Below, piece after piece: positions 31,391 to 33,148 of a stretch of 33,148 nt of DNA. The notes below the pieces were generated by a model, which was given only the letters and a program-made list of their open reading frames with translations, was not told the DNA's origin and ran no database searches. This stretch comes from Candidatus Gastranaerophilales bacterium (lineage in GTDB: Bacteria > Cyanobacteriota > Vampirovibrionia > Gastranaerophilales > Gastranaerophilaceae), in the NCBI GenBank assembly GCA_944323425.1, contig CALUSL010000022.1, forward strand, positions 1-33,148. The letters run 5' to 3'. The first letter of the stretch is position 1, and every line of letters starts with the position of its first letter. Position numbers and translations under genes: made by a program.

Positions 31391-31418
31391 TTGACATGAT
31401 ATATTTATTTAGTATTAT
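31391..31418 (+). promoter_or_regulatory. Strong promoter of the tRNA-Val array
   Basis: Perfect TTGACA (31391-31396), 16 bp, TATTAT (31413-31418). It starts one base after the TPR stop codon and faces the tRNA array. Confidence 0.75.
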
Positions 31419-31425
31419 AAATATA

Positions 31426-31537
31426 CGGTTTCCGTCAGGGACCGCACAAGAATAAGTTCAAGGACGTTTGGTTCGTTGAATGACTGGTAAAGAACATGTT
31501 GTTCTAGCTGGAACTTGTAAAAATTAAATAGAGCACT
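31426..31537 (+). repeat. Structured leader with degenerate tRNA-headed cassette
   Basis: No ORF. A hairpin forms at about 31426-31444 (CGGT...ACCG with an inner TCC/GGG). GGACGTTTGGTTCGTTG (31462-31478) resembles the tRNA-Val 5' end. AGAACA-TGT-TGTTCT (31490-31504) is a perfect hairpin, and AAAATTAAATA follows at about 31520-31530, as in the downstream cassettes. I read it as a diverged first copy of the 89-bp unit. Confidence 0.5.
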
Positions 31538-31715
31538 GGCGTTTAGCTCAGTTGCTTAGTGAGGTTTACCTCACACTTTAAATAAAGCTTCCCCTGGGAA
31601 GCGCGTGAAAATTGAATATGGTGAAGGGCGTTTAGCTCAGTTGCTAAGTGAGGTTTACCTCACGCTTTAAATAAAGCTTCCCCCGGGAAGCGCGTGAAAA
31701 TTAAATATGGTGAAG
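31538..31715 (+). repeat. Two 89-bp tandem cassettes headed by a tRNA-Val 5' fragment
   Basis: Unit A (31538-31626) and unit B (31627-31715) differ at only four of 89 positions. Each starts GGCGTTTAGCTCAGTTG, the first 5' bases of the tRNA-Val that follows in register at 31716, and then leaves the tRNA sequence. Each contains three contiguous hairpins: GTGAGG/CCTCAC (31559-31574; 31648-31663), CTTTA/TAAAG (31576-31587; 31665-31676) and GCTTCCC/GGGAAGC (31587-31602; 31676-31691). There is no T arm and no 3' acceptor strand, so they are not functional tRNAs. None of the hairpins has a T run, so they are not ordinary terminators. Confidence 0.9.
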
Positions 31716-31790
31716 GGCGTTTAGCTCAGTTGGTAGAGCGCTTCCCTTACAAGGAAGATGTCGGGAGTTCGAGCCTCTCAACGCCCACCA
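31715..31790 (+). tRNA. tRNA-Val(UAC), CCA encoded
   Basis: 76 nt fold as a complete cloverleaf: acceptor GGGCGTT/AACGCCC, D stem GCTC/GAGC, anticodon stem CTTCC/GGAAG with loop CTTACAA (anticodon TAC, reading GUA), T stem GGGAG/CTCTC with loop TTCGAGC, discriminator A and an encoded CCA. It is followed at once by a terminator. Confidence 0.95.
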
Positions 31791-31795
31791 TTTAT

Positions 31796-31823
31796 AAAAA
31801 GACTACTTTGGTAGTCTTTTTTT
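31796..31823 (+). terminator. Terminator of the tRNA array
   Basis: AAAAAGACTAC (31796-31806), loop TTTG, GTAGTCTTTTT (31811-31821), continuing as T to 31823. Confidence 0.92.
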
Positions 31824-32104
31824 GTTGAGGGCATCTCACTCCCGACGGAGTTCTCCTCTCTTTTTAAACTTGACATTTAGTCAGTGTTGTGTATCAAGGA
31901 TTTTGAGAAAAAGTATCGCGAGTTTGACATGTAAGTCGGAAAGTTTTTGACAAAAAATACTTATTATTAAAAAGATTTTGAAAAATGAGAGAAATTTAAA
32001 CGGTATTTAAATACCGTTTAACAACTGTTTAATAAATGTTCAAAAATTACATCTTTTCAATATACCAATTAGAAATTCCAAAGAGATTCTCTTGTTTTTC
32101 GGCG
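31824..32104. other. Non-coding region with repeats beyond the tRNA
   Basis: No ORF with a ribosome site. It holds a small hairpin ACTCC/GGAGT (about 31840-31853), three TTGACA blocks (31869, 31924, 31947) without well-spaced -10 partners, a 26-bp palindrome (31996-32021) and AAGAGA/TCTCTT near 32081-32093. Confidence 0.6.
31996..32021. repeat. 26-bp perfect palindrome
   Basis: The two arms, TTAAACGGTATTT and AAATACCGTTTAA, meet with no spacer. A related, imperfect inverted repeat (GGTATT, AAAAC, AG, GTTTT, AAATACC) lies at about 32850-32875, on the other side of the small-gene cluster. Confidence 0.85.
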
Positions 32105-32338
32105 TTAAACGGGCACGCTACGCTTCAGCCCTCTGCCGACAAGCCGCAAGTTACGTTGAAGCTGAAAATAGAAATTATATTCCATTGAATTGTCATCTTT
32201 AAAATTGTAAGAATATTTATTTAATTGTGTTCTGCGATAACTTTCAAAAGCAGTCCTGATTTCTTTTGCAAACCTTTTTCTAAATTCAGGATAAGTTATT
32301 TCTAAAGTTTCTCGTGTCAGCCTATTTTTCAAAATCAT
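32105..32338 (-). CDS. Unknown 77-residue basic protein
   Basis: Family unknown. I start at ATG 32338, 7 nt after AGAGGG; a TTG two codons upstream (32344) is also in frame. The product is rich in Arg, Lys, Tyr and Phe (FRKRFAKEIRTAFESYRRTQ, FYFQLQRNLRLVGRGLKR), which would suit nucleic-acid binding. It overlaps the preceding gene by 17 nt. The end of the gene is noticeably richer in G and C than its surroundings. Confidence 0.7.
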   Translation of the reverse strand: MILKNRLTRETLEITYPEFRKRFAKEIRTAFESYRRTQLNKYSYNFKDDNSMEYNFYFQLQRNLRLVGRGLKRSVPV

Positions 32339-32522
32339 CTTCAAACCCTCTTATACTATCAAGTTCTATATTGTATCTTTTGCCTTGTCTATCAACGCAA
32401 GTTGCGTAATCTATCTCTGCATCAGCAAATTTGTTTTTCCAAATACAAATCAGCAAGCCAATTTCTTGTGTTTTTAAATTCAGAACCTTTGTGCCATAAA
32501 GTGCATAGTCTTTTTCTGTCAT
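32322..32522 (-). CDS. Unknown 66-residue protein
   Basis: Family unknown. The start forms an ATGA overlap with the stop of the preceding gene, and AAAGGAA lies about 8 nt upstream. The sequence suggests a small beta-barrel (YGTKVLNLKTQEIGLLICIW, RQGKRYNIELDSI), comparable in look to short phage- or plasmid-encoded accessory proteins. It shows one pair of Cys but no CxxC motif and no signal peptide. Confidence 0.7.
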   Translation of the reverse strand: MTEKDYALYGTKVLNLKTQEIGLLICIWKNKFADAEIDYATCVDRQGKRYNIELDSIRGFEDDFEK

Positions 32523-32737
32523 TGTTCTTTCCTTTCAAGTATTAAATTTGAATAGATATCATCAGGCTTTTGTGGGTCTATTAAAAATTCTTTCATAAAT
32601 ACAAATCTTTCTCCGCAAGTGTTTTCACAAATTACAGTGTCGAAGTTGTAGAAACCGATTACTTTGTAATACTCATTATCAGAGCTCTTAAAACCTTTAA
32701 TCTTTTTAAGCTTGTATTTTTTGCCTAATTCAATCAT
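32519..32737 (-). CDS. Unknown 72-residue protein
   Basis: Family unknown. ATG 32737 is preceded by AAGAGG about 6 nt away. It has the look of a small beta-rich domain (KYKLKKIKGF, YYKVIGFYNFDTVICENTCG, RFVFMKEFLID) followed by a charged tail. Its layout resembles that of the next gene, which it overlaps by 4 nt, so the two may be distantly related or partners. Confidence 0.7.
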   Translation of the reverse strand: MIELGKKYKLKKIKGFKSSDNEYYKVIGFYNFDTVICENTCGERFVFMKEFLIDPQKPDDIYSNLILERKEQ

Positions 32738-32838
32738 TGTTACCTCTTATCAGCAATGACATTCATCACTCTTAATGAGTAAAATATCAAGCAAACTCTT
32801 TCAAAACGTATCATTCAGACACAATTTATTTTTTGAAC

Positions 32839-32875
32839 ACTGTTTGAACGGTATTAAAACAGGTTTTAAATACCA
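32839..32875. repeat. Imperfect inverted repeat related to the 26-bp palindrome
   Basis: GGTATT-AAAAC and GTTTT-AAATACC flank a two-base centre, with one unpaired A. Just to the left, TTTGAAC occurs twice 11 bp apart (32832 and 32843). It lies between the 32737 start and the 32877 stop and could be an operator. Confidence 0.55.
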
Positions 32876-32876
32876 T

Positions 32877-33101
32877 CTAAAAATTCTTGTTTTCAGGATA
32901 ATTTATAAAAAATGCGTTGACTGTATCAGTATCTCGCCTTAAATTTTCGACGATTGGGGTAAGATTATACAGCTCTTCAATTTCTTGTTGCGTCCTGCAA
33001 AAATAATCAATTACAGTGACAATATTATAAATCCGCTCAGCTAATTTTTCTAACTTCCTAAAATCTTTTTGTTTAATCTTGTATTTCTTGCTGTTACTCA
33101 T
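32877..33101 (-). CDS. Unknown 74-residue helical protein
   Basis: Family unknown. I start at ATG 33101, because a near-perfect SD, AAAAGGAGGT, lies 3 nt upstream (33114-33105); the in-frame TTG at 33137 would translate through it. The product is a basic head (MSNSKKYKIKQKDFRKLEKL) followed by predicted helices with Glu/Leu/Ile heptads (TQQEIEELYNLTPIVENL). It is separated from the other three small genes by 139 nt holding the inverted repeat. The strongest SD of the window suggests high translation. Confidence 0.72.
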   Translation of the reverse strand: MSNSKKYKIKQKDFRKLEKLAERIYNIVTVIDYFCRTQQEIEELYNLTPIVENLRRDTDTVNAFFINYPENKNF

Positions 33102-33148
33102 ACGACCTCCTTTTAAGGTGTCGTATTCATCACTCAAAAGTTAGATAA

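Follow-up and report, generated by a model that had tools for sequence, protein, structure and literature searches.

Hairpin cassettes in the D and T arms of tRNA genes of gut Gastranaerophilales

The 33,148-nucleotide contig CALUSL010000022.1 of a Candidatus Gastranaerophilales bacterium (assembly GCA_944323425.1), whose whole length is called the window here, carries two tandem units directly ahead of its tRNA-Val(TAC) gene, each of which begins as the tRNA does and then turns into hairpins. What are these units, and how does a tRNA gene come to be preceded by them? They belong to an order-wide class of cassettes in gut Gastranaerophilales, in which each unit of ∼80–240 nt lies within a tRNA or transfer-messenger RNA (tmRNA) gene, in the D arm for the 5′ type and in the T arm for the 3′ type. 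Inside the insert are a hairpin core of an interchangeable kind and, in inverted orientation, a copy of the tRNA arm. An orphan tRNA end, or head, is left outside, and the inner edge supplies a full copy of the head together with its own leader motif (5′ type) or terminator (3′ type); the gene therefore stays intact. The class is apparently undescribed so far, as neither a description of it in open-licence papers nor an Rfam family was found. As to its origin, we give about an even chance to small non-coding integrative cassettes that enter the D and T arms, regenerate the tRNA end and grow by head-to-head recombination.

The array at tRNA-Val(TAC)

The locus contains the following features.

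31391..31418, + strand: near-consensus promoter (TTGACA-16-TATTAT, 11/12) of the array and tRNA-Val, upstream of everything
31426..31536, + strand: unit 0, a diverged older segment ending in the shared tail GTAAAAATTAAATA
31537..31625, + strand: cassette unit 1, with its head at 31537-31554
31559-31574, + strand: core hairpin of unit 1, GTGAGG-TTTA-CCTCAC
31587-31593 and 31596-31604, + strand: sense fragment GCTTCCC and antisense GGGAAGCGC of unit 1
31606-31618, + strand: tail motif of unit 1, TGAAAATTGAATA
31626..31714, + strand: cassette unit 2, laid out as unit 1 (hairpin 31648-31663, GCTTCCC 31676-31682)
31685-31693 and 31695-31707, + strand: antisense GGGAAGCGC and tail TGAAAATTAAATA of unit 2
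31715..31790, + strand: intact tRNA-Val(TAC), the sole Val(TAC) gene found in the window's genome (G000)
31801..31823, + strand: terminator hairpin GACTAC-TTTG-GTAGTC with a T-run; homologous terminators occur in G001 and G003
31824..∼31925, − strand: relic 3′ cassette pointing into tRNA-Val, its outer boundary uncertain
31824-31846 and 31848-31854, − strand: T-arm antisense and sense fragment GAACTCC of the relic
31855-31860 and 31872-31882, − strand: GAGAGG and loop GACTAAATGTC of the relic

The two 89-nt units are 96% identical (85/89) and abut the tRNA gene, and the 17-nt tRNA-Val head GGCGTTTAGCTCAGTTG occurs three times at a spacing of 89. A first-pass annotation of the window had described a pair of 89-bp units that keep exact register with tRNA-Val and open with its first 17–18 nt, and a single TTGACA promoter ahead of all units and the tRNA with a terminator after it; both descriptions were confirmed. 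The diverged copy that it placed before the two units is seen as a strongly diverged segment that shares the tail, but no head copy was detected there. Similarly, the G at position 31664, which it took to lengthen a stem, does permit more pairing in the form of an extra GCTTT/AAAGC stem in unit 2, but it does not lengthen the GTGAGG stem.

The hairpins GTGAGG/CCTCAC and GCTTCCC/GGGAAGC are present in both Val units. Folded alone, each unit forms a closed module in its minimum-energy fold, with the head paired inside through a short GCG:CGC stem, and gains only modest stability over shuffled sequence (z −1.2 and −1.4); some other units fold well (z −3.6, −3.0 and −2.9). The units are not tRNAs, since ARAGORN and Rfam detect just the real tRNA gene. 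Rfam searches, strict and permissive, gave no family match in the units and returned only real tRNAs and chance hits, while a search of a phage collection found nothing beyond tRNA similarity. Two structural readings were dropped, namely a kink-turn in the core, for which the tandem G-A pattern does not hold, and a group I intron, suggested by the resemblance of GACTAAATGTC to a conserved strand, for which the units are too short and Rfam offers no support.

On the other side of the gene, the first-pass annotation had missed the relic 3′ cassette, whose 23-nt arms are complementary to the T arm and form an inverted repeat. Its intact equivalents are found in G001, as three identical 237-nt units, and in G003. 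Past the relic, a series of small open reading frames on the minus strand (32105-33137) reaches the contig end.

Occurrence and grammar of the units

Is the array peculiar to one gene? Our DNA search, which covered 59 related genomes, found units ahead of tRNA-Val(TAC) in other genera and in another family. The arrays in L002, L003 and L005 are preceded by a promoter region much like that of the Val array described above; in L012 and L015–L018 a plain promoter lies directly ahead of the gene, with no units. The inverted copy also follows its target, and where the Val anticodon stem is CCTCC instead of CTTCC, GGGAAGCGC has become GGGAGGCGC to match (L014, L019). A lone local relic of replication slippage, the plain alternative offered by the first-pass annotation, is therefore refuted, as both copies and compensatory changes are found in relatives.

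Every tRNA gene of G000 was then examined for copies of its head. The first 11–20 nt of the gene itself are copied ahead of Thr, Lys, Met, Pro, Asp, Arg, Ala, Leu and Val genes at spacings of 88–274, often in perfect tandem (89 bp and at least three units at Arg-ACG). Mirrored units occur at the 3′ ends of Tyr, Gly, Met, Arg, Lys and Leu genes, where the head is the tRNA 3′ end and a terminator takes the place of the tail. Such own-head copies were found in 12/37 5′ flanks and 9/36 3′ flanks of G000, in 11/32 and 10/32 of G008 (another genus), and in 5/30 and 12/30 of G048 (another family), against 0.4–0.9% for the heads of other tRNAs in those flanks (0.6–0.9% of pairs in G000 itself). Head copies are almost nonexistent beyond 420 nt. 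These flank counts are free of core-based selection, whereas the set of 120 5′ units and 83 3′ units used below includes loci picked for carrying a core, and unit frequencies in it are biased. Contig ends are also concentrated at these sites, with 20 of the 80 in G000 (C1–C40) lying no more than 300 nt from a tRNA or orphan unit against 1.1 expected, so that array sizes are underestimates. The cassettes appear to fragment metagenome-assembled genomes (MAGs) at tRNA genes; the G000 MAG has no 16S gene. Mirrored 3′ cassettes are also borne by tmRNA genes (L369; L079/L148/L152), the core being altered in G000. Separately, L120 holds a tRNA-Ile-like sequence with an unusual long variable region, in at least two tandem copies, in which a class-b core replaces part of the anticodon-arm region.

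The cores fall into classes, of which class b is the best sampled. Its 94 units have a common grammar: head, core, resumed tRNA sequence, inverted D-arm copy, tail and tRNA. The head usually stops at tRNA C11 (GTGGC) or in the D loop, and tRNA sequence resumes near G18. Class a (Val, Arg, Asp, Gly) has a GTGAGG..CCTCAC-type hairpin with an AGATWAWG motif, class c starts with AAGGACTCC or AGGGACC, and class d is found at the 3′ ends of Ser and Gln genes. The inverted copy matches its own tRNA over at least 9 nt in 54/120 5′ units, compared to 2% for other isotypes, and in 33/83 3′ units, compared to 6%. In 51/120 5′ units it spans tRNA positions that are missing from the unit, and these positions can therefore pair only with the real tRNA. 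The motif TGAMAATTRAATA has 24 copies in G000 against one for a reverse control and lies mostly just ahead of tRNAs or between units. At G000:C6:85915 (L058), the tail motif TGAAAATTGAATA stands ahead of a non-tRNA element with arms GAGATGAACCCACA and TGTGGTTCATCTC. For the 3′ type, a crude terminator finder gave no separation between flanks with units (43/83) and without (89/197).

These properties raise the question of whether the 5′ units, co-transcribed with the gene, act in cis as a leader RNA, in which a switch between head and antisense lets the tRNA fold or ties up its D arm or anticodon stem and so controls maturation. The strongest argument for this alternative is that the antisense can pair with its own real tRNA at the frequencies just given, and it gains from the single promoter ahead of array and tRNA, the tracking of anticodon-stem changes, the conserved tail motif and the units that fold well. 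Set against it most strongly are the mirroring of the grammar at 3′ ends, outside the terminator, and the related cores in dispersed repeats described below. Many tRNA genes, orthologues in close species among them, also lack units, and the core helix is poor in G-U pairs. Folding of unit plus tRNA, which asked whether the antisense insulates or traps the tRNA, was left unused because shuffled controls gave the identical outcome, probably owing to a multiloop energy that rewards enclosed extra helices. We consider a leader role possible, though doubtful.

Covariation, turnover and origin of the cassettes

Whether the core is maintained as a structure can be read from 39 distinct 45-nt class-b cores. 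Their alignment was seeded by an exact pattern, and its invariant ends therefore prove nothing. The 12-bp core helix covaries strongly, with 96 cells changed on both sides against 35 (sd 5.5) in shuffles, 0/500 of which reach 96, and at most 24 in slid controls. Few of the varying cells hold G-U pairs, almost all being Watson-Crick, and a DNA hairpin is therefore as good a reading as an RNA hairpin. In a sample of 244 genomes from the phylum, the core model matches 106, which belong to the window's family except for one in a second family of its order; nearly all Candidatus Gastranaerophilales genomes in the sample are matched, G068 and G262 being the two listed family members without a match, and the listed genomes of other orders and of the rest of the phylum gave zero matches. 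The matches listed by a pattern scan of public genomes are mostly Candidatus Gastranaerophilales or gut or rumen MAGs, with a few other names; the taxonomic assignment is based on these names.

The cores are not tied to particular tRNAs. Eight exact cores are shared by at least two tRNA identities or ends, and one array (L390) alternates classes c, b, c on a single head. In G179, at least nine near-identical dispersed palindromic repeats of ∼300 nt, with ends GTCACCCTGAAC...TTCAGGATGACAG, contain the class-b core (L381–L389). Forty-five class-b pattern hits lack a same-strand tRNA in the 700 nt downstream of them; several of those read are opposite-strand 3′ cassettes of tRNA or tmRNA genes, and others are embedded in REP-like hairpins. 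Class c too has two dispersed modules (AGAACTCTGTT..TAGAGGCAGGCGACGTCAGAAGCGAAGCTTCTGC) at sites away from tRNAs (G000:C3:44497, L365; C41:4391, L366). Unit number is not fixed either: four species of the window's genus differ in their presence and number at orthologous tRNAs, and arrays of 1–4 or more units vary between close species.

This distribution bears on the proposal of the first-pass annotation that the Val array is a special polycistronic small RNA (sRNA) precursor or RNase P decoy. Tandem sRNA genes on a tRNA promoter, yielding stable RNAs like tRNA 5′ halves that act as decoys for RNase P, a synthetase or a nuclease, would fit the layout and the hairpins. The units, however, match no tRNA or Rfam family, the Val units fold modestly, and turnover is rapid. 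The cassettes are moreover mirrored at tRNA and tmRNA 3′ ends, where a terminator splits them from the tRNA in the cases read by eye, and related cores sit in dispersed repeats. The proposal is unsupported, and we regard tandem sRNA genes as highly improbable.

How insert and gene are joined is seen at two sites. Reading inward at Ser-GGA in G002, one meets a terminator homologous to the outer terminator of G000, then a copy of the head, the insert, another terminator unrelated to the first, and finally the intact tRNA; in G000 the outer terminator runs straight into the tRNA, giving a near-clean empty site that would fit excision. On the 3′ side of Val-TAC in G001, the three identical units have an outer terminator unlike the inner ones. 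These layouts place the insert within the tRNA and show it supplying a tRNA end and a terminator of its own, an arrangement that does not arise from simple duplication of what lies nearby. The same sites are relevant to a second alternative, that local DNA errors produced the units with no mobile element, template switching at palindromic arms creating direct-inverted-direct structures that then slipped. It would account for the order sense, inverted, sense at each end, for short turn palindromes such as CTCCCGTCGGGAG, for arrays of near-identical units and for the involvement of both tRNA ends. It is at odds with inner terminators that are not copies of outer ones, with a core of one sequence and structure that recurs at many tRNAs order-wide, and with identical cores on different tRNAs. 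Local errors alone are thus unlikely in our view.

With integrative cassettes, the account that we favor, the D and T arms would serve as insertion sites for non-autonomous elements. The core module would move between sites, arrays would grow and shrink through recombination between repeated heads, and cassettes would persist because the tRNA is not broken. In favor of this account are the excess of own heads at both ends in three genomes of two families, the common grammar of the 94 class-b units, the layouts at Ser-GGA and Val-TAC, the exact cores shared between tRNAs, the alternating classes in L390, the dispersed repeats of G179, the differences among the four species, the clustering of contig ends and the covariation of the core. 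Several points weigh against it. Clean pairs of empty and occupied sites are few, and even at Ser-GGA, the clearest, gain versus loss is not settled. Head, sense fragment and inverted copy are each tRNA-specific, and simple transposition of a fixed element leaves this unexplained; the 5′ tail motif is common to different tRNAs, hinting at a leader function. A search for a mobilizing enzyme identified none: Y1/RAYT transposases are absent from G000–G003, which represent the window's genus, and an IS110 DEDD transposase is absent from G000–G008. A larger coding or autonomous version was not found at these sites, the cases inspected being longer arrays only. Mobilization by RAYT/REP and by an IS110 bridge RNA were accordingly rejected, the former also on the grounds that the RAYTs of relatives lie beside another palindrome. 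These RAYT-like Y1 transposase genes (L189, L191, L193, L197) adjoin a different REP, TAGGTTGGGC..GCCCAAC.

One further mechanism would give the inverted segment an active part. Complementary to the target arm across the insertion point, it might steer the cassette, in RNA or single-stranded DNA form, to insertion in its own tRNA gene, with re-insertion building the arrays and mobilization in trans. We think this quite improbable; if true, guide-directed insertion would be a categorically new mode.

Significance and comparison with known systems

A large share of tRNA genes across a bacterial order bear cassettes, in series and at either end. The cassettes are a natural system for asking how DNA invades essential structured genes harmlessly. 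In annotation they would give misleading calls of tRNA fragments, promoters and terminators, and, if the antisense part acts, a leader switch may control tRNA supply in these uncultured gut bacteria.

Among known systems, phage Ms6 integrates in the T-loop of tRNA-Ala with restitution of the tRNA end (PMC1762012). Phages and islands that integrate in tRNA genes resemble the cassettes in that crossover occurs inside a tRNA arm, the tRNA end is directly repeated, and the insert provides a replacement end that leaves the tRNA functional. The cassettes differ in being ∼80–240 nt long and non-coding, with no integrase or other gene in the units, in occupying 5′ ends (D arm) as well, and in forming tandem arrays in which every unit comes with a leader motif or terminator of its own and with an inverted arm copy. 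Tandem inversion duplications likewise contain direct, inverted and direct copies of one segment, but in the cassettes a shared core is inserted and the terminators are different rather than duplicated. The palindromic repeats of REP/BIME, mobilized by RAYT, are similar to the extent that the class-b core also lies inside REP-like hairpins; they are set apart by the missing Y1 transposase and the distinct REP noted above. In a comparison of workings only, the IS110 bridge RNA also flanks a hairpin with a sense segment of the left target and an antisense segment of the right target, although the cassette segments are far longer and the transposase is lacking. Rickettsia palindromic elements (RPE), Correia and ERIC are short, hairpin-forming, multi-copy, lineage-specific elements tolerated near or in genes. 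The cassettes share with them short multi-copy hairpins, restriction to a lineage, tolerance near or in genes and occurrence at unrelated sites in a genome, but are concentrated at tRNA and tmRNA ends, where their flanks are target-specific and the end of the gene is regenerated.
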